DNA of 64,000 nt from Sipunculus nudus (Eukaryota; Annelida; Sipuncula; Golfingiida; Sipunculidae): assembly GCA_026874595.1 (NCBI GenBank), contig CM049314.1:55783812-55847811 (forward strand), given 5' to 3'. The position numbers were made by a program, and so were the translations under genes. Shown here piece by piece: positions 9,485 through 55,384 of this stretch (positions are counted from its first letter, which is position 1; every line of letters starts with the position of its first letter). A model generated the notes under the pieces. It did not search any database and was not told the DNA's origin. It saw nothing but the letters and a program-made list of their open reading frames with translations.

Positions 9485-11275
9485 CGGCGTTGATTTTAAC
9501 AAAAACAGATGCATGTACAATCGTCATTTATTTACATAATATATAAAATGTTATCCATTAATATAAATACGCACAATTTCAAGGAAACCTCAGAGATCTT
9601 ATCTATTTTCTAATAAGTTTTAGATGCATTCCTAACAAAAGAATACATTTATTTACATGAAATGTATATATGGATATATTAACATTAGAGCAATGTTTGC
9701 CTGGCGTTAGAAAAAAAGGTTACATAGTAATATTAAATAACATTCGAACAATAGTCGGATAACGTTCGGAAAAGGTTAGCAAAAGTCAAAGTAAAAATAC
9801 ACTGTATTTGCATTTTAAAGAAATTTCAAGATAAATTTTGGATTTCATGTTTGTTTTCTTTAAGTATCAAATACATTAAAAACCAGTGAATACATTTATT
9901 TTCGAGAAATATAAATATGGACAACATACGTTAGGGCGATGTTTGCTTGACGTTAGAAAAATGTTTTATAGTAATATTGAGTAACATTCGAACAATAGTC
10001 AGATAACGTTTGGAAAAGGTTAGTATGGGTCAAAGTAAATACAGACTACGACAAGGTAACTCTGGATTTTACTTTTACTTTCATAAAGTATCAAATACAT
10101 TCGCAAATAAAGAGTACCTTTTTTTCAAGAGATGTATATATGAACAAAATAACATTGGAGCAATGTTGTCCTGGCGTCAGATACAAATATTTTCCCAACA
10201 TTAAATAACATCTGATTAATGTTCGAAAAACGTTAGGAAAATATTAACGTATGGGAAAATATAAATACAATTTCAAGAAAACCTCAGAGTAACTGTGATC
10301 TTATCTATTTTCTAATAAGTTTTAGATACATTTCTAACTAAAGAATACATTTATTTTCATGAAATGTATATACGATTATATTAACATTAGAGCAATGTTT
10401 GCCTGGCGTTAGAAAAAAAAAGGTTATATAGTAATATTAAATAACATTCGAACAATAGTCGGATAACGTTCGGAAAAGGTTAGCAAAAGTCATAGTAAAA
10501 ATACACTGTATTTGCATTTTAAAGAAATTTCAAGATAAATTTTGGATTTGATGTTTGTTTTCATGAAGTATCAAATACATAAAAAAACAGTGAATACATT
10601 TATTTTCGAGAAATATAAATATGGAAAACATACGTTAGGGCGATGTTTGCTTAATGTTTTATAAATGTTTTATAGTAATATTGAGTAACATTCGAACAAT
10701 AGGCAGATAACGTTTGGAAAAGATTAATATGGGTCAAAGTAAATACAGACTACGACAAAGTAACTCTGGATTTTACTTTTGTTTTCATAAAGTATCAAAT
10801 ACATTCGCAAATAAAGAATACGTTTATTTTCAAAATATGTATATATGGACAAAATAACATAAGAGCAATGTTGTCCTGGCGTCCGATAAAAATATTTCCC
10901 CAACATTAAATAACATCTGATTAATGTTCGAAAAACGTTAGGAAAATATTAGCGTATGGAAAAAATATAAATACGCACAATTTCAAGGAAACCTCAGAGT
11001 AACTGTGATCTTATCTATTTTCTAATAAGTTTTAGATACATTCCTAACTAAAGAATACATTTATTTTCATGAAATGTATATACGGATATATTAACATTAG
11101 AACAATGTTTGCCTGGCGTTAGAAAAATATATTATATAGTAATATTGAACAACATTCAAACAATAGTCGAATAACGTTCGTTAGGGAAACGTTATCACAA
11201 TATTATATAACATTCGACAAATGTTCAGAAAACGTCAAGAAACTGTTTGCATAAGGTCAAAGAAAAGGCACGCAC
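9485..11275 (+). repeat. satellite with ~706-bp higher-order unit of three ~235-bp monomers
   Basis: The CAATGTT/CGATGTT anchor lies at 9691, 9937, 10161, 10393, 10641, 10866 and 11103: spacings 246, 224, 232, then 248, 225, 237. Three monomer types thus repeat in the same order. A second anchor, ATCTTATCTATTTTC, recurs at 9596, 10298 and 11008 (702 and 710 apart). Within monomers, AACATTCGAACAAT and AACGTTCGGAAAA-like words are spaced like a short ancestral repeat. No coding potential. Confidence 0.9.
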
Positions 11276-13468: not shown

Positions 13469-13680
13469 CAGAAGCGGATCCAGGGAGGGGTCCAGGGGAT
13501 CCGGACCCCCCCCCCCTTTTTTTCATCCGCTGCAAGCTTTTTGTAAGGGTTTCAGACAAAATGTTGCGGCCTGGACCAACCCCCCCCCCCCCTTTCCGGA
13601 CCTGGTGATCTTTTTTTTATGGTTTTTCATTAGTCCTCATTGGTTGAACCCCCCCTTCCTAAATGCTTGATCCGCCCCTG
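13469..13680 (+). mobile_element. MITE with GCGGATCCAGG-type termini, copy 1
   Basis: The left end CAGAAGCGGATCCAGG and right end TGATCCGCCCCTG are inverted terminal repeats. Both sides are flanked by ATACT (13,464-13,468 and 13,681-13,685), a possible 5-bp target duplication. Inside are two poly-C runs, GGTTTCAGACAAAATGTT and TTTTTCATTAGTCCTC. Other copies lie at 21,260, 23,958, 29,297 (partial) and 54,964. Confidence 0.75.
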
Positions 13681-13730
13681 ATACTGTACTGAAGTTAGAT
13701 AGCAGTCATTCAATTTTCACCTAACTTTGA

Positions 13731-14070
13731 ACCGGCTTCTGTGGCTAAGGGGTAGAGCACAGACAGGAGATCGTGAGTCCGAATCTCAGCCGAGGCGGCG
13801 AGATTTTCGATTGTCGGCCCCTACCCAGGTTGAGCGCTCTGCAGGCTTAATGGAAATACCGCGCCAAACGGGATTGTTTCACTCACAAACGAGCGCGCCT
13901 TTCGGGGGTTCCTCGGTGGTATGACACAGTCAATGGGGACGATTACGCACCCAGGGCCCGCGGGGCAGTAATCACCGGGCCTGGTGGACGCCAGGATATA
14001 AAATGAGAGGAAGCGTGTGATACTGCCCTGTCACGTAATCCGAAACCGAATGGAATTCTGCAGATGTACA
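13731..14070 (+). mobile_element. tRNA-derived SINE, copy 1
   Basis: The head is tRNA-like: box A TGGCTAAGGGG (13,742) and box B GTGAGTCCGAATCTC (13,773). A ~270-bp body follows, ending CCCTGTCACGTAATCCG...TTCTGCAGATGTACAT. The whole length aligns with the copy at 54,184. The anticodon arm is degenerate, so this is a SINE head and not a tRNA gene. Confidence 0.85.
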
Positions 14071-14395
14071 TTACGTAGATAAGTTCGCATAAAAAATAGA
14101 AGCGGTTACCTCCAACAAAAATATATTAAAAAAAACTTTGAACATGGATTCATGAGATCACTCGTCTCGTTGATGTGTAGTTTTGAGTTTGTTGTAAAAT
14201 TAAGCGCTACGTGGCAGTCTACAATCATGACCGGACCAACAAAATAGCAAAATCCTGCTATAAAATAATATATTTTTATTCCCTCTTCCATCCCTTACTT
14301 TCCAATATGGCCATGCACCCTTTTCCATTTCTGGTAGCGGTGTTTTTTTTAGTTGGGGCCAAGCACTTGTACCTGTCTGTATCTATATGTACACA
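14071..14395. other. unassigned DNA
   Basis: Nothing recognised. Confidence 0.4.
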
Positions 14396-16561: not shown

Positions 16562-17049
16562 TATGGAAGCATTCCATGACTACGTACGGTAAAAATTTCC
16601 GATTATTAGAAGAATCTATTTTTCATGTAGTTTAATATATCTTTTCTTATGCGATATAAAGCTTTGTTTCGTGCCTATTTTGTACTAATATGGCCTATTT
16701 AATTAGGCTAGAACATATCGTGGACTATTTGAGAGTAGAAGGACAGGGGGAAATAAAAAGAAAAATCTCCAACAATAGCGTCGGAGTGTCTCTACATATC
16801 ATCCTATGTCTCTACATAGGGCCGCACTTTAAAGCTGTGTTTGAGGTCGAGGATGCAAATATTTTCATATTTTTTACAACTCGTCATAGATAAGTTTGTT
16901 TACATTCTATAACAATATTTGACAGATACGAGAAAATTTCCGGTTTAACTCAGCTTTTTGGAAGACCCCCCGACCTGCATGTTTGATCTGTTGGAGAATT
17001 ATATTTCTGGGATGTAACATACTATATTTACAAAAAGCTAATGGTGTGT
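16562..17049. other. unassigned DNA
   Basis: A 67-codon open frame at 16,690 has no recognisable domain. Nothing else seen. Confidence 0.4.
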
Positions 17050-20000
17050 ACCCATAATTTCAACATGTGATCTGTGACATCCGGGTTTAAGTGTGTACGG
17101 AGAATTGCAGCCCGGTGAGCGGTTTAGACAAACTTGGGGAAGTAAACCTGTCAAGATTCAATACATAAGGGCGCTGGGATTCGACACGAAACCATTTCGT
17201 TGACCGAGTCCATACGAGAATCTACAGTATTCCGAGGACTGAGTCTATAGTATTCCGAGGACCGAGTCCAGGCGAGAATCTATAGTATTCCGAGGACCGA
17301 GTCCAGGCGAGGATCTAAAGTATTCAGAGGACCGAGTCAAGATGAGAATCTATAGTACGTGGACCGAGTCCAGGCGAGAATTTATGGTATTCCGAGGACC
17401 GAGTCCAGGCGAGAATCTATAATATTCCGAGGACCAAGTCCAGAGGAGAATCTATAGTTCCGAGGACGATTCCCGGCGAGAATCAATAGTATTCCGAGGA
17501 CCGGAATCCGGCGAGAATCTATAGTTTTCCGAGGACCGAGTCTAGGCGAGGATCTAAAGTATTCAGAGGACCGAGTCCAGGCGAGAATCTATAGTATTCC
17601 GAGGACCGAGTCCAGGCGAGAATCTACAGTATTCCGTGGACGAGTCCAAGCGAGAACCTACAGTATTTTGAGGACGGAGTCCAGGCGAGAATTTATAGTA
17701 TTCCGAGAACCGAGTCCAGAGGAGAGTCTATAGTATTCCGAGGCCCGAGTCCAGGTGAGAATCTATAGTATTCCGAGGACGATTCCCGGCGAGAATCAAT
17801 AGTATTCCGAGGACCGGAATCCGGCGAGAATCTATAGTTTTCCGAGGACCGAGTCTAGGCGAGGATCTAAAGTATTCAGAGGACCGAGTCCAGGCGAGAA
17901 TCTATAGTATTCCGAGGACCGAGTCCAGGCGAGAATCTACAGTATTCCGTGGACGAGTCCAAGCGAGGATCTAAAGTATTCAGAGGACCGAGTCAAGATG
18001 AGAATCTATAGTACGTGGACCGAGTCCAGGCGAGAATTTATGGTATTCCGAGGACCGAGTCCAGACGAGAATCTATAATATTCCGAGGACCGAGTCCAGA
18101 CGAGAATCTATAGTTCCGAGGACTGAGTCCAGGCGAGAATCTACAGTTTTCCGTGGACGAGTCCAAGCGAGAACCTACAGTATTTTGAGTCCAGGCGAGA
18201 ATTTATAGTATTCGAAAACCGAGTCCAGAGGAGAATCTATAGTTTTCCGAGGCCCGAGTCCAGGTGAGAATCTATAGTATTCCGAGGACGATTCCCGGCG
18301 GGAATCAATAGTATTCCGAGGACCGGAATCCGGCGAGAATCTATAGTTTTCCGAGTACCGAGTCCAGGCGAGAATCTATAGTATTCCGAGGACCGAGGAC
18401 CGGCGAGAATCTATAGTATGACGAGTACCGAGTCCAGGCGAGAATCTGTAGGATTCAAAGACCCGAGTCTCGAGTTCAGGCGAGAATCTATATTTTTCGG
18501 AGGACCTAGTCCAGGCGAGAATCCACTGTATTCCGAGAACCGAGTCCTGGCGAGAATCAATAGTATTCCGAGGACTGAGTTCCGGTGAGAATCTATAATA
18601 TTCCGAGGACCGAGTCCAGGCGAGAATCTATAGTATTCCGAGGACCGAGTCCCGGCGAGAATCTATAGCATTCGAAGACCGAATCTCGAGTCCAGGCGAG
18701 AATCTATAGTTTTCCGAGGACCTAGTCCAGGCGAGAATCTATAGCATTCCTAGGACCGAGTCCAGGCGAGAATCCATAGTATTTTAAGGACTGAGCCCAG
18801 GCGAGAATCTATAGTATTCCGAGGACCGGGTAAAGGAGAGAATCTATAGTATGACGAGGATCGAGTCCAGGCGAGAATCTATAGTATTACGAGGATCGAG
18901 TCTAGGCGAGAATCTATAATATTACGAGGACTGAATCCAGGAGAACACCTATAGTATTACGAGGACCGAGTCCAGGGAAATATATAGAATTCCGAAGACC
19001 GAGTCCCGGCGAGAATCTTTAGCATTCGAAGACCGATTCTCGAGTCCAGGCGAGAATCTATAGTTTTCCGAGGACCTAGTCCAGGCGAGAATCTATAGTA
19101 TTCCGAGGAACGAGTCCAGGAGAGAATCTATAGTATGACGAGGATCGAGTCCAGGCGAGAATCTATAGTATTACGAGGAACGAGTCCAGGCGAGAATCTA
19201 TAGTATTTTAAGGACTGAGCCTAGGCGAGAAGCTATAGTATTCCGAGGACCGGGTACAGGAGAGAATCTATAGTATGACGAGGATCGAGTCCAGGCGAGA
19301 ATCTATAGTATTACGAGGATCGAGTCTAGGCGAGAATCTATAATATTACGAGGACCGAATCCATGAGAACACCTATAGTATTACGAGGACCAAGTCCAGG
19401 GAAATATATAGAATTCCGAAGACCGAGTCCAGGCGAGAATCTATAATATTATGAGGACCGAGTCCAGCAAAGAATCTATAGTATCACGAGGACCGAGTCC
19501 AGACGCGTATCTTTAGTATTACGAGGACCGAGTCAAGGCGAGAATCTAAAGTGTTACGAGGACCGAGTCCCGGCGAGAATCTATAATATTATGAGGACCG
19601 AGTCCAGCAAAGAATCTATAGTATCACGAGGACCGAGTCCAGACGCGTATCTTTAGTATTACGAGGACCGAGTCAAGGCGAGAATCTAAAGTGTTACGAG
19701 GACCGAGTCCCGGCGAGAATCTATAGCATTCGAAGACCGAATCTCGAGTCCAGGCGAGAATCTATAGTTTTCCGAGGACCTAGTCCAGGCGAGAATCTAT
19801 AGTATTCCGAGGACCGGGTACAGGAGAGAATCTATAGTATGACGAGGACCGAGTCTAGGCGAGAATCTATAATATTATGAGGACCGAATCCAGGAGAAAA
19901 CCTATAGTATTACGAGGACCGAGTCCAGGGAAATATATATTATTCCGAAGACCGAGTCCAGGCGAGAATCTATAATATTACAAGGACCGAGTCCAGCAAA

Positions 20001-20150
20001 GAATCTATAGTATCACGAGGACCGAGTCCAGACGCGTATCTTTAGAACTACGAGGACCGACTCCAGGCGAGAATCTATATAGTGGTACGAGGACCGAGTC
20101 CAGGCGAGAAACTAGCTATTTGTGGGGAGAGGGTCGGGGCAAGAGGATGT
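17050..20150 (+). mobile_element. dispersed element carrying the expanded 35-bp array
   Basis: The left flank (17,050-17,199, with CATAATTTCAACATGTGAT and GAGCGGTTTAGACAAACTTG) and the right flank (20,104-20,150, GCGAGAAACTAGCTATTTG then a GGAGAGGGTCGGGGCAAG stretch) both have relatives at 54,933-55,312. There they enclose about one monomer. The satellite is therefore best read as an expansion inside a dispersed element of unknown class. Confidence 0.6.
17200..20112 (+). repeat. 35-bp satellite array, about 83 monomers
   Basis: The monomer reads CGAGAATCTATAGTATTCCG followed by AGGACCGAGTCCAGG (35 bp). Variants include CAATAG for TATAG, TTACG for TTCCG and AGGATCTAAAGTATTCAGAG. Variants recur as sets. 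GATTCCCGGCG recurs at 17,468, 17,781 and 18,290. CAGCAAAGAATC recurs at 19,465 and 19,605 (exactly four monomers apart) and again at 19,994. TATGACGAGGATCG recurs at 19,134 and 19,274 (four monomers apart). This shows nested multi-monomer duplications. Monomers touch one another, so this is not a CRISPR. Confidence 0.97.
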
Positions 20151-20465
20151 ATTTCGGCAAAGTGTATAGCTTGATAACGGATAACTTTTCTCGAACACAC
20201 CCAAATCCTTAAATTATTGTTACCTATCACACAGGCAGGAAGCAGTAGAGGGAAATATTCTTGTGTCAATATAACTAGACATAAATACATTTCCGAAAGA
20301 ACTGAGCCGAATTGCATGGATATGAAATATTCGGACCATGTCGTATTCAATGGCATTTATTGTATTGTGGTCTTCATAGAAATGCAAGATTGCATGGAGC
20401 ATGTATTCTTTTTATTATTCATTTGGAAATTTATATATATATATATATACCTATATATATATATA
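20151..20465. other. unassigned DNA with a short TA tract
   Basis: Nothing recognised apart from TA-rich sequence from about 20,430, which supplies the target site of the next element. Confidence 0.5.
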
Positions 20466-21259: not shown

Positions 21260-21448
21260 CAGGGGTGGATCCAGGATTTAGAAAAAGGAGCGGCCCAATC
21301 CAGGAAAGCTTATGGGAAAACCTATTATAAAGGTCCATAGGTGCGAAAGGGGGGGGGGGGGGGTCCAGGCCGCAAAAATTGGTCTGAAACCCTTAAAAAA
21401 AGGTTACGTTGTTTGGAACCCCTGGACCCTCCCCTGGATCCGCTTCTG
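21260..21448 (-). mobile_element. MITE with GCGGATCCAGG-type termini, copy 2 (nested)
   Basis: CAGGGGTGGATCCAGG at the left and GGATCCGCTTCTG at the right. The central poly-G and GGTCTGAAACCCTT match copy 1 in reverse. It lies inside the hAT-like element, so it inserted later or travelled with it. Confidence 0.75.
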
Positions 21449-23935: not shown

Positions 23936-23957
23936 GGACCCATGTCTGTATTATACA

Positions 23958-24157
23958 CAAGCGGATCCAGGGGAGGGGTCCAGAAGGTCCGGACCCCCCC
24001 CCCCCTTTTTTCATTCGAAGAGACCTTTTTTTAAGGGTTTCAGGCAAAAGGTTTGGCCCGGACCCCCCACCCCACCCCCTCTTTTCCGGACCTGGGGACC
24101 TTTTTTTCATTAGTCCTCCTGGTTTCCCCCTTTTCCTAAATCCTGAATCCGCCCCTG
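23958..24157 (+). mobile_element. MITE with GCGGATCCAGG-type termini, copy 3
   Basis: CAAGCGGATCCAGGGG to TGAATCCGCCCCTG, with the same internal poly-C runs and the stretch TTTTTTTCATTAGTCCTCCT. It starts two bases beyond the target duplication of the hAT-like element. Confidence 0.8.
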
Positions 24158-24882
24158 ATATGTATAATATGGCAAGCGATAGAGGAGTTGAAGTATAAGG
24201 AGCACAGGGGAGGACGGTTACCCCCTCCCAGTGTAGAAACATTTTCTTTTTAATTTAGGCTGCATGTATAAGGGCGCAATCCGGTTATGATTTTTTTTTC
24301 ACTATTAAGCACTAATTGTTCTACTTCACAGAGTTTATAGATCGACAGAATTGGGCGCTCTTTCCCTTAGAAAGGCCCCCCCCCGTAAACTCGACCCAAT
24401 AAAGGTTTACAATATAAAGGTATACTGGTACTACTATTGTGTATGCGTATGATCTTTGTGTCGTATACATAATCTTAATCGCAGTGTTATCGGGCCTATG
24501 AAAAAAAAACCGACCCTCTATCCTTGTTGCCTCCAGCTATATATGATAAACCGGTCAGCCCTGGTTTATTAGTAGGTCAGATAAAAGTCTCAATGTATTT
24601 TATCTATACCTTATATGTATGTATGTTTTTTATATGTCAAAGACTCAATGTCGAATTTTGTATTATCTTTGATACCTATATATCAACTGTCCGGGACATT
24701 TATTATATTATATGACCTTCTGTATTCTTATATACGTATGTTACTGTGTACATATAACAATACAGTTCAATGTTATTATTAACGTCAGTAAAAAGACAAA
24801 TATACACATGCTGATAAAACCACTAAAGATAGCCCCCCCCCCCCCCCGTGTAAAAAAGTAGCCATGCACGTTATCATTATTA

Positions 24883-35075: not shown

Positions 35076-36150
35076 CAATAAATTTCAAATATTAAGGACG
35101 CTAGACAGTAGATATAGTCTACGTTATTTTTTTAAGAATCCGTACAATGGCAGATATTTACAGTAAACATATTTTGTTTCTGATCATGTCTGTGCTGGTA
35201 TATTACTCTTAAACCGTTTATGAAAACTGATGAAAGTTAATCAGTGGAAATAAAATGCCTAATAATGCAACTGTTACTGTATACACCGTCTTCAATCGAG
35301 GAAGCAATGTTCCTCCCCGACTGGTCATTGCACAGCCAGCTCGCCCTATCTTCACCTATGTGCGGGGAGAAATGATCCGTTAAGCCGATGTATTCTTTGG
35401 GAAGTACTGCTGAGCGATGTGAATATGAACCGCTTGAACTGAGATGATCGCGGACCAATGTACTTGAGGACATATGTACCCAGCTGGCTTGGCCTTCCCA
35501 GGTATCAAGAATACAAAGCCAATGTGCATTACTGCATTCAGGATTTTCACAAAAGTACCGCGGGAAACAACAAATGAACAGCCTGGTGCTCTTTGCAAAG
35601 GTCAGTTATGTAATATTTGGTTTAAACTTGCGGGTTTGGTTGTTTTGGTGACCAAAATGCTTCTATTGTCGCTCAGGAGGAATGTTTGGCCGTGAAACAC
35701 GCGAGCCACATGATAACAACCAGCTGGCCAATCAGTAACGAGAAAAATATCGTGATCGTCTTCGTTGCTAAGTGCTGTGTCATAGGGGAGTGCCGCCCAA
35801 CGTATGCACAATATTTGACCAAGATATAGTTATATTAGAATAAATATGATATATTTTTGTTTATTAAACTGCTTTATCCTCGATTGGGTTCCTTAATATG
35901 CCATAGCTAAACAAATCAACCCAGATGTAATTGGAATTTATTTATCATATATGCACCACATCCCCATACAAGTGGACTAGACTTCCTAGAAACCGTGTCA
36001 TGATGACCCAGTTGGAAGAAATTGACCTACATTTATTTGTGAGGCGTGGGCATCGTATGACCAGGTAGAACCAAAAGTGAATCAGTTACCGGTGCATCCG
36101 CATGATAAGATCTGTCTACCTGAGCTAAGCTGCAGATACAGAATAGTAAA
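35076..36150. other. region upstream of the MID1IP1-like gene
   Basis: No gene recognised. GGCCAATCAG (35,726-35,735) is a possible CCAAT box on the coding strand. CTGCAG at 36,130-36,135, 16 bases before the start codon, could be an acceptor for a 5' UTR intron, but its pyrimidine tract is poor. The minus-strand open frames here have no domains. Confidence 0.35.
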
Positions 36151-36630
36151 ATGATGGAAGGGCATGAAATATCGCGCGTCCCCGTTCATGAGAGAGATAA
36201 AGCTGGCCAGCAATCTCTGCTGTCAGCCATGAACAAGTTTGTTGCTGCTGTCAATGAAATGGACGATACAGTTATGATCCCGAGCCGGTTGAGAGACATG
36301 CCGGCGCAAGCGGAAGGCTCCAACACAACGCTGGTGCCGAAAAAGAATAATATTATTATACAGCCTGACGGACTTTATGGATTTTACACCATGTTAAATG
36401 CTGTCCGGGGAGAACTGGTGAGGGGACCATGCTGCGAACGTGATGATGATGAAAATGAAAACGCACATGTTGATGAACAGTCTCGCCATGTGGCTGCTTC
36501 TTTCAGACACCACCTAACAGGACTGTTTGAAGTTCTGCGACAGTTGACAGATACTGCACAGTACTTGACAAGTCGGTATAAAGAAGAAGTCGGTGATTGT
36601 ATAACAACAACAAAAGTGTCACCTTTGTAA
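36151..36630 (+). CDS. MID1-interacting protein 1 / Spot14-like protein
   Basis: This is a complete single-exon frame of 159 residues in the Spot14/MID1IP1 family. Vertebrate members are small non-enzymatic proteins; MID1IP1 binds and polymerises acetyl-CoA carboxylase to raise fatty-acid synthesis and also binds the microtubule-linked ligase MID1. Three family blocks are visible: residues 20-51 (LLSAMNKFVAAVNEMDDTVM, then IPSRLRDMP), the helix at 73-92 (DGLYGFYTMLNAVRGELVRG), and the C-terminal helix at 118-148 (FRHHLTGLFEVLRQLTDTAQ, then YLTSRYKEEVG). An acidic loop (DDDENEN, 98-104) sits where human MID1IP1 (183 residues) also has a variable acidic linker. The start is the first of two adjacent ATGs; either could be used. 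It is the only intact host gene seen. Assignment is by remembered family motifs. Confidence 0.85.
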   Translation: MMEGHEISRVPVHERDKAGQQSLLSAMNKFVAAVNEMDDTVMIPSRLRDMPAQAEGSNTTLVPKKNNIIIQPDGLYGFYTMLNAVRGELVRGPCCERDDDENENAHVDEQSRHVAASFRHHLTGLFEVLRQLTDTAQYLTSRYKEEVGDCITTTKVSPL

Positions 36631-53900: not shown

Positions 53901-54183
53901 AGGTACTCACTGCTTGTTGTTCACATAATATTCTAAAAAACGTTCTGGATGATATAGATGATATATTTTTAAACTGGACCAAGAGCGAGTTAAATCAACC
54001 ATTTCTCCTCGTAATGTGTATGGCTGACCGGTCAAAAATTTTCATTGAAATATCAAGAAATAATCTAAAGACCTATAGAGGACAAAAAGATAACAAACAG
54101 CTATACAAGAGTTACAGAACAAAAATAGTTATCCAATTATTAGGGACCACTTTGTATGGTTCAGTTTGCCGCAAGGTGACGAA

Positions 54184-54525
54184 ATCGGCTTCTGTTGCTC
54201 AGGGGTTAGAGCACATGGCTCATAGCTGGGAAGTCGTGAGTTCAAATCTCAGCCGAGGCAGTGAGAATTTCACGGTCGACCCCATCCAGGGTGAGCGCTA
54301 TGCAGGCTAATCGGAAAGGCTGAGCATCACTCACAACCGAGTGCGTCTTTAGGGGTTACCGCGGTGTTAAGACTCAGCAATGGGGTTGATAATACATCCA
54401 TGACCCGCAGGTGCGGTAGACACCAGGCTTTGGTGACACCAGTATATAACATATATGATAGAAAGCGAGTGCTCCCGCCCTGTCACGTAGAGTCCCAAAC
54501 CAAAGTGGAACTCTGCAGATTTACA
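54184..54525 (+). mobile_element. tRNA-derived SINE, copy 2
   Basis: Box A TTGCTCAGGGG (54,195) and box B GTGAGTTCAAATCTC (54,236). The body matches 13,731-14,070 throughout and ends CTCTGCAGATTTACAT, followed by (TA)n. Confidence 0.85.
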
Positions 54526-54562
54526 TATATATATATATATATAAATATATATAAATACAAAT

Positions 54563-54691: not shown

Positions 54692-54932
54692 CTACCAAAA
54701 AAGGTGAATAAACATCGGGTAAAACATTAATAGCAACTATTGAATAATGTATTCGTTAATAAATACTTTAATCATTTTCATAAATACTCATATTATTATA
54801 TAAAGTAAAACATATATTATAACACAGAGTTCTTTAAGCAGTCACTTCTTCATGTTTTTCTACGTATACGCCTGGCCCATCTCATCTTTTCTGATGACTC
54901 TTAATTATGTGATTTCTAGTAACTAGCAGTAT

Positions 54933-55312
54933 ACTCATAATTTCATCATGCGACCTGTAATATCCGGGTGGGTCCAGGGGCTCCGGAACCCTCCTTTACC
55001 ATCCGCCGCAATCTTTTTTTAAGTGTTTAAGACAACATTTCGTGGCTTGTGTCCCCCCCCCTTTTCTGGACCTAGTGACTTTTTTTTTAGGTTTTTCATC
55101 AGTCCTCCTTGGTTTGACCCCCCCCCCCCTTTTTCCCCTAAATCCTGGACCCGACCCTTATATTACAATCTCAATCAGCGGTTACGAGAACCTTGGGAAA
55201 ATAAACCTCTCAGGGCCCGATCCTTGGGCAAGTATGCGACAAGAAAGTACTCCGAGGACAACGTCAAGGCGAGAATCTAGCTATAACGGCGAGAGTCTGG
55301 TGGTAAGGTGGA
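54933..55312 (+). mobile_element. single-monomer paralogue of the 35-bp satellite locus
   Basis: The left flank CATAATTTCATCATGCGACC and, after a MITE, CAGCGGTTACGAGAACCTTG match the left flank of the 17-20 kb array. TACTCCGAGGACAACGTCAA with GGCGAGAATCT (55,249-55,278) is about one 35-bp monomer. CTAGCTATAACGGCGAGAGT then GTGGTAAGGTGGATGT matches the right flank at 20,112-20,140. Confidence 0.65.
54964..55159 (+). mobile_element. MITE with GCGGATCCAGG-type termini, copy 4
   Basis: Diverged ends CGGGTGGGTCCAGGGG and CCTGGACCCGACCCTT; internal poly-C and TTTTTCATCAGTCCTCCTTGG as in copies 1 and 3. It interrupts the satellite-paralogue locus. Confidence 0.7.
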
Positions 55313-55384
55313 TGTGACAATTTTTAAAACAGAACAACGTTTGTTAAACCATGCCAAAATAATCATTAAAGCCTATATATGGCA

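Follow-up and report, generated by a model that had tools for sequence, protein, structure and literature searches.

A 35-bp satellite of Sipunculus nudus, probably born in place within one copy of a dispersed 286-bp element

Minisatellites derived from transposable elements have been described in several animals. In the passages cited here, a 2019 review (PMC6947457) names Alu, B1 and MaLR as sources of minisatellites, gives a model of slippage at short repeats, and refers to a mouse LTR pair (Kelly 1994), to B1 (Bois 1998) and to Alu (Jurka and Gentles 2006). As at the locus described below, a short unit comes from a dispersed element. According to the same passages, two mouse arrays have similar origins in transposon-like LTRs, and a role of short flanking repeats in the first step has been suggested (Haber and Louis 1998, cited in PMC6947457). 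Unlike the minisatellites of those passages, nine of the arrays reported here abut one 10-bp zone of a single small element, the units run on both sides of that zone, and one array extends over ~47 kb.

Almost any part of any transposable element can tandemize, as stated in the relevant part of a 2025 review (PMC12628747). Among its examples, the Xenopus MITE miDNA4 (Scalvenzi and Pollet) holds an internal sequence that is present once or in an array whose copy number varies, as is the case here, and microhomology has been proposed for both. For miDNA4, capture of a pre-existing tandem repeat by a Tc1/mariner MITE was proposed, whereas here slices of the element itself become units; unlike in that MITE, we saw no clear TIR and no target-site duplication. 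Xenopus Xstir (Hikosaka and Kawahara) likewise has tandem repeats made from internal element sequence, but its model joins two neighbouring elements, whereas each of our arrays reads as lying within a single copy (PMC12628747, same part). The oyster Helentron Cg_HINE, in the portion of its description used here (PMC7492417), is dispersed and non-autonomous, with tandem repeats at the centre of some copies, a T-rich left target and no target-site duplication found, all of which are features in common with our element. In contrast to Cg_HINE, our consensus has neither a pair of subTIRs nor a microsatellite on the left, copies normally have a single core, and units measure 21-53 bp as compared to 138-181 bp. 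Moreover, our arrays read as born in place, whereas those of Cg_HINE are carried (PMC7492417, same portion).

A search of the open-licence literature, repeat databases excluded, found no report of the 286-bp element or its units, and a search with the monomer string returned no paper on repeats by title. Even though minisatellites derived from transposable elements are a known kind, a replicate series around one 10-bp zone is apparently new.

In this study, we analyse a stretch of 64,000 nucleotides from Sipunculus nudus (the window), which contains a 35-bp tandem array. With a probability of about three in four, we regard this array as a satellite born in place in one old element copy, at a weak point around consensus position 182-191, and grown by block duplication. 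The copy that holds the window array is called locus 1, and the array itself, on contig 9, is called C9.

The window array and its relative at locus 2

TRF finds the window array at 17244-20114, with period 35 and 82.1 copies. Cyclic alignment places 83 units in 17221-20110, including two short ones of 23 and 28 bp, and besides these a degenerate first unit at 17191-17220. The mean pairwise identity of the units is 0.83 by segmentation. Block duplications within the array span three to seven units; units 8-13 and 17-22 are 0.995 identical and units 46-52 and 58-64 are 0.967 identical. The array has therefore grown by duplicating several units together, and the exact four-unit repeat given in Table 1 is the youngest growth step visible in it. 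The array is embedded in an element copy, with element sequence on both flanks. The left flank alone is identical to consensus 9-151 at 122 of 142 positions, and the first 8 bases of the copy (from 17038) are placed by extrapolation. As expected for animal DNA, viral and prokaryote collections gave no match to the 35-bp monomer pattern, and plasmids gave none to window 17000-17700.

Table 1. Positions of locus 1, locus 2 and the arrays found in other copies of the element
Feature	Position	Strand	Details
Left half of 286-bp element, consensus ~1-150	17038..17190	+	consensus 9-184 aligned to 17046-17224, 80.6%, E 1e-42
35-bp tandem array, consensus 151-185	17191..20110	+	TRF, segmentation, unit placement 32/35
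Four units 19440-19579, repeated exactly at 19580-19719	19440..19719	+	units 65-68 = 69-72, identity 1.0
Right part of window element copy, consensus ~187-286	20111..20225	+	74/95 to consensus 187-281; BLAST 158-281 to 20088-20220
Locus 2, left end, consensus 2-49	54921..54969	+	87.5% over 48 bp, 54922-54969
Unrelated repeat nested in locus 2	54970..55163	+	relatives 13488-13683, 23956-24164, 21260-21448(-)
Rest of locus 2, consensus 79-267	55174..55360	+	75.6%, E 7e-32
Single core (unit equivalent) of locus 2	55247..55279	+	28/33 to array consensus; sole core match there
C3	C3:756994-761359	-	36 bp x120 (TRF), core array
C5a	C5:6653158-6655862		29 bp x96 (TRF), core array
C5b	C5:92871970-92873370		28 bp x50 (TRF), core array
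C6	C6:1620116-1620709	-	53 bp x11 (TRF), core array
C5c	C5:23960249-23960925	-	28 bp x24 (TRF), core array
C3b	C3:71916505-71916715	-	42 bp x5 (TRF), core array
C13	C13:58063670-58063883	-	22 bp x10 (TRF), core array
C8, right-hand array	C8:11242421-11289187	-	26-bp unit = consensus 191-212 + four bases
C7	C7:61542236-61542514	-	21 bp x13, from element 5' end
C16	C16:55379676-55379772	-	~50 bp, 2-3 copies, outside core

An earlier note on this DNA had stated that both array flanks have relatives in the same block order at a second locus (locus 2, 54921-55360), and this is confirmed by alignment and by the family consensus. On the left, 17046-17086 and 54929-54969 are identical at 34 of 41 positions, and 17118-17153 and 55177-55212 at 29 of 36. 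None of 300 dinucleotide shuffles and none of 233 other places in the window reached the scores of these two pieces, so that the comparison with shuffled sequence proposed in that note came out in its favour. The right join, CGAGAA-CTAGCTAT, agrees at 14 of 15 positions and is short. It was reached by 0 of 300 shuffles, but 4 of 233 other window places score equally, and the right-flank match by itself is therefore weak evidence of a relation between the two loci. The consensus supports the right flank, with matches to 20088-20220 (E 2e-19) and 55174-55360 (E 7e-32). As to the extent of the element, the right limit given previously does not hold: the element reaches further right, to ~20225 and ~55360. 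The count of about 83 monomers here and about one at locus 2 agrees with our 83 units plus a degenerate one and the single core at 55247-55279. When the consensus was compared with the window (E<=0.01, not counting matches that begin within the array), loci 1 and 2 alone were found. Low-scoring left-flank relatives near 14.9 kb (minus strand), 56.05 kb and 6.5 kb were not taken as element copies.

By its alignment to the consensus, locus 2 is an ordinary single-core element copy, interrupted by an unrelated insert. The inserted repeat belongs to a family with four window copies (13469-13688, 21260-21448 on the minus strand, 23956-24164 and 54970-55163) of ~190-220 bp with C/G runs, perhaps a MITE. 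Elsewhere in the window, 36124-36630 encodes in one open frame a protein of the Spot 14 family (Pfam PF07084, E 2e-28), and at 9560-11180 a segment of ~0.9 kb is repeated at a 700-bp offset with 92% identity.

A dispersed family in which a single core is usual

Dispersed copies at 73-84% identity were obtained with the left flank as query (best 40 of 562 candidates scored). From an alignment of 26 copies we derived a sharply bounded consensus of 286 bp, to which these copies are on average 0.83 identical; the family is therefore old. The consensus as query yielded 6,091 first-look candidates in the 1.43-Gb genome, and the 40 of these 6,091 that were scored match most of the consensus length at 83-88% identity. 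Judged by its longest open frame of 72 codons, the element is non-coding.

Cores were counted in 57 distinct fetched copies, a set from which L037 (locus 2) and L001 and L009-L016 (the window array) were left out. One core was present in 48 copies, none above threshold in nine (seven at a laxer threshold) and two or more in none; TRF likewise detected no core tandem of unit length in the 57 copies. A single core is thus the usual state of the family. A search with the core pattern gave 749 matches in all and the backward control gave 0. Of the 100 listed among these 749 matches, the C3 and C9 arrays account for 26 and other places for 74, and two of the latter (C5:23960363 and C3:71916684) are arrays.

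Concerning locus 2, the earlier note had seen in it a special sister, an unexpanded copy of locus 1 preserved nearby, and this part of the note was not borne out. The equal block order and CTAGCTAT, which is common to both loci and present in 0 of 57 other copies, speak for such a preserved pre-expansion sister, but we consider it very improbable. A single core is the family norm, and in the sampled set many copies resemble locus 1 more closely than locus 2 does. The identity of loci 1 and 2 is 0.686, lower than that of any pair formed by 48 other full copies (mean 0.773), in a comparison which left out 9 of 57 copies spanning <250 bp and in which the choice of the 48 by similarity to query or consensus biases the pairwise identities upward. 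The two loci have one non-consensus base in common, as compared to a mean of 2.35 for other pairs. Their outer flanks gave no match to each other in a self-comparison of the window (E<=1e-4). The absence of CTAGCTAT from the 57 other copies leaves room for a slightly closer relation of the right ends. Tandem arrays can collapse by unequal exchange, and a copy of the locus-2 type might accordingly be a contracted array and not an unexpanded one. This is the least probable of the explanations considered here, since a single core in 48 of 57 copies makes one core the ancestral state by parsimony.

Concerning the class of the element, inverted-repeat pairs in the consensus (end regions of 60/80 bp) reach at best 7 bp, equalled by 141 of 500 shuffles. 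A MITE was rejected: the terminal match is only 7 bp, inset from both ends and borderline (equalled by 22 of 500 shuffles, 40/40 bp), and there is no duplication. No repeat of 2-9 bp exceeded permuted pairs as a target-site duplication in the 33 copies with both ends, in which T stands at -7 and -6 in 24 and 25 copies, respectively. A T-rich target without target-site duplication is a Helentron/HINE trait. Assignment to this class was nevertheless rejected, the subterminal inverted repeats of 11-12 bp not being present in the consensus. Locus 1 has one 11-bp inverted pair with a mismatch, its left arm at the outer edge, as also have 2 of 30 shuffles; locus 2 has no such pair. The consensus contains two candidates for a 3' palindrome, another Helentron/HINE trait: ATCCT..AGGAT at its very end and AAAGCG..CGCTTT at 232-249. 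A Helitron-like origin is possible, with the subTIR hallmark missing from the consensus. A SINE was rejected as well: the search for a tRNA, 5S or 7SL head, which covered the sequences of loci 1 and 2, gave no Rfam match at E<=1 within window 16900-20300, and neither locus had a match that reached the gathering score.

Two other repeats of the window belong beside these classes. At 44-1957, a 337-bp unit repeated 5.5 times is followed by an (ACGG/ACAG)n microsatellite, an anatomy which we take to resemble that of HINE-type elements. The repeats at 54183-54526 and 13730-14071 are 72% identical and probably form a tRNA-derived SINE pair, the former opening with a head that resembles a tRNA (Rfam tRNA, 31.4 bits, 54188-54260).

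Arrays in other copies and the zone at 182-191

At least 11 tandem arrays (the window array and ten others) sit in different copies of the one element, with units of 21-53 bp and sizes from 2-3 to ~1,800 copies. The proposal of the earlier note that the satellite grew inside a dispersed element, to be checked on whether other arrays in the genome share the flanks, stands, because other same-core arrays lie in the same element. Element sequence is found on both sides of C3, C5a, C5b, C6, C3b and C13, on the left side only of C5c and on the right side only of C8. Eight core arrays, including that of the window, have units that are slices of consensus 137-191. Their left ends vary (137, 150, 151, 157, 157, 157, 159 and 166), their right ends all lie at 182-191, and consensus 166-182 is common to all eight. 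A ninth array (C8) starts at 191 and runs the opposite way. C7 and C16 lie elsewhere, and tandem growth is hence not confined to the 182-191 zone. Contiguous slices account for the units of C9 (32/35), C5a (26/29), C3b (39/42), C13 (21/22) and C7 (21/21). Imperfect slices are those of C5b, with one deletion, and of C3, C6, C5c and C8, with 4, 3, 2 and 4 extra bases, respectively.

Of the element, C8 retains just the right part: at its right edge the array passes into consensus 191-286 (83%), and no element sequence was found past its far edge. All nine stretches read edge to edge are array; if unbroken, C8 is ~46.8 kb long with ~1,800 units. The C7 unit seems to hold an ATAATT that both target and element had. 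In the C3 copy, consensus ~35 to 157 is missing. To derive the C3 unit from the element, 4 extra bases and an earlier deletion are required, and GACC of the left fragment seems to be part of this unit. DNA left of the C3 element together with its first bases is present in three copies, one at the left edge and two within the array (matches to consensus 9-35 at 2619, 3864 and 4818 of reversed L017); array growth can therefore take in flanking DNA. C5c lies in a rearranged element copy, and its right end is not placeable.

Further arrays were seen near element copies. Positions 1-952 and 1305-1683 of L017 hold arrays with 47-bp and ~29-bp units, ~0.7-1.4 kb past the right end of the C3 element; arrays cluster locally. 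L083, L084 and L086, inspected as possible arrays, are not element arrays; L083 1-207 (reversed) is a 19/38-bp array ~45 bp from an ordinary element copy and unrelated to the element. In L032, an ordinary copy, the GGAGAGAG tract of the element, where satellite units end elsewhere, has expanded to a long GA microsatellite.

The core might not be special at all, arrays arising anywhere in the element and queries based on the core producing the appearance of a hotspot. Early queries were indeed made from core units, five arrays having come via the earlier note or core-unit queries and three via the core part of control queries, and the arrays C7 and C16 lie outside the core. The two control queries contained trimers of consensus 1-144 and 191-286 beside a core trimer (145-156 not covered), and the best 40 of 666 and the best 40 of 289 candidates were scored; because of this, the number of arrays in other parts of the element may be underestimated. 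Among the matches listed are seven core arrays, C8, C7 and C16, with C6 missed. Eight of these ten loci have one end at 182-191, for which uniform placement gives a binomial probability of ~5e-8, a rough value that assumes independent loci and complete scoring, neither of which holds. Moreover, 16 of 16 further long non-core matches (L099-L114) are ordinary copies without an element array, and four ordinary copies, L045, L046, L058 and L066, gave matches of this same shape. Conservation does not favour the core either, with 20-bp means of 0.85-0.87 there and 0.82-0.92 along the element. A query with the C6 unit found no further array. Taken with these results, an ordinary core is unlikely.

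Slightly less likely still is that the arrays are cargo, that is, that an array-bearing subfamily transposed and its loci differ by later drift. The part of the oyster work cited above describes HINE-type elements of the Pacific oyster with central tandem repeats between conserved flanks (PMC7492417), and C5a and C5b have the same GGA junction. However, units differ in length and phase, from 21 to 53 bp, and two cores are found in 0 of 57 ordinary copies. In 351 of 359 monomers from five arrays (C9, C3, C5a, C5b and C6), nearest neighbours are in the own array only, and the outer flanks of these five loci have no similarity. The distance from array to single core is 0.224-0.259 for four of the five arrays, as compared to 0.249 between single cores, and 0.312 for C6. 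The differing slices, unrelated flanks and clustering by array point to separate births in place. The independence of C5a and C5b is doubtful because the junction is common to both, and these two may not be independent births. Most likely, the arrays were born in place, repeatedly, in old copies and at one weak point.

Birth, growth and meaning of the arrays

In the mechanism that we propose, the weak point would lie at consensus ~182-191 (CTATCTGCGGAGAGAG), adjoining a purine (GA) tract that may cause stalling. In rare copies, a short stretch beside it would be duplicated in tandem, 22-53 bp leftward at eight loci and 26 bp rightward at one (C8), and the initial pair would then be enlarged by duplication of unit blocks. 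The first step could be slippage during replication, or repair, between short matches (GGA/GGA at spacings of 29 and 53 bp, GCG/GCG), and array births would come long after element insertion.

Junctions and folding were considered with respect to this first step. GGA occurs at consensus 137, 161 and 190, giving spacings of 53 bp (C6) and 29 bp (C5a and C5b; 28 after one deletion), and a GCG match fits the C13 junction. The microhomology at the C5a/C5b junction is 7/10, in the top 0.5% of 7,316 pairs. The C3 and C6 junctions have 3-bp runs only, found in 10% of pairs, and at the window junction microhomology is not evident (4/10 matches, a level that 26% of random pairs reach). Predicted unit structure does not stand out, with z 0.22 for one unit and, for two units, -1.40 on one strand and -1.14 on the other. 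In DNA folds of 45 bases placed along the consensus, z does not dip at the core; its minimum (~-2.4) falls in windows starting at 205-214.

With regard to timing, the window unit differs from the element at 3 of 35 positions, the units differ by 9.6% from their consensus and the flanks by 17.3% from the element. The unit-element distance and the unit spread sum close to the flank divergence, a hint that the window array was born about midway in the life of its element copy; the clock has ~30 sites per array and ignores homogenisation. The corresponding values are 10.3% + 10.0% and flanks of 20.5% for C5a, and 14% + 7% and 17.5% for C6. For C5b, 3.7-7.1% + 7.7% remains below the 15.9% of the flanks, and C3 does not fit (6% + 15% versus 11% over a short flank).

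The start of a satellite is usually seen once, after the fact. At least 11 arrays in one 286-bp background, with single-core copies as controls, are natural replicates of satellite birth, among which start site, first junction, growth mode and age can be compared. More tentatively, at somewhat under even odds, the element would be a sequence-encoded site of satellite nucleation: a fixed break or stall point beside GGAGAGAG that repeatedly starts satellites, on both sides, in long-dead copies. If this is true, the dispersed copies, in their thousands, would form a permanent reservoir from which satellites can be seeded.
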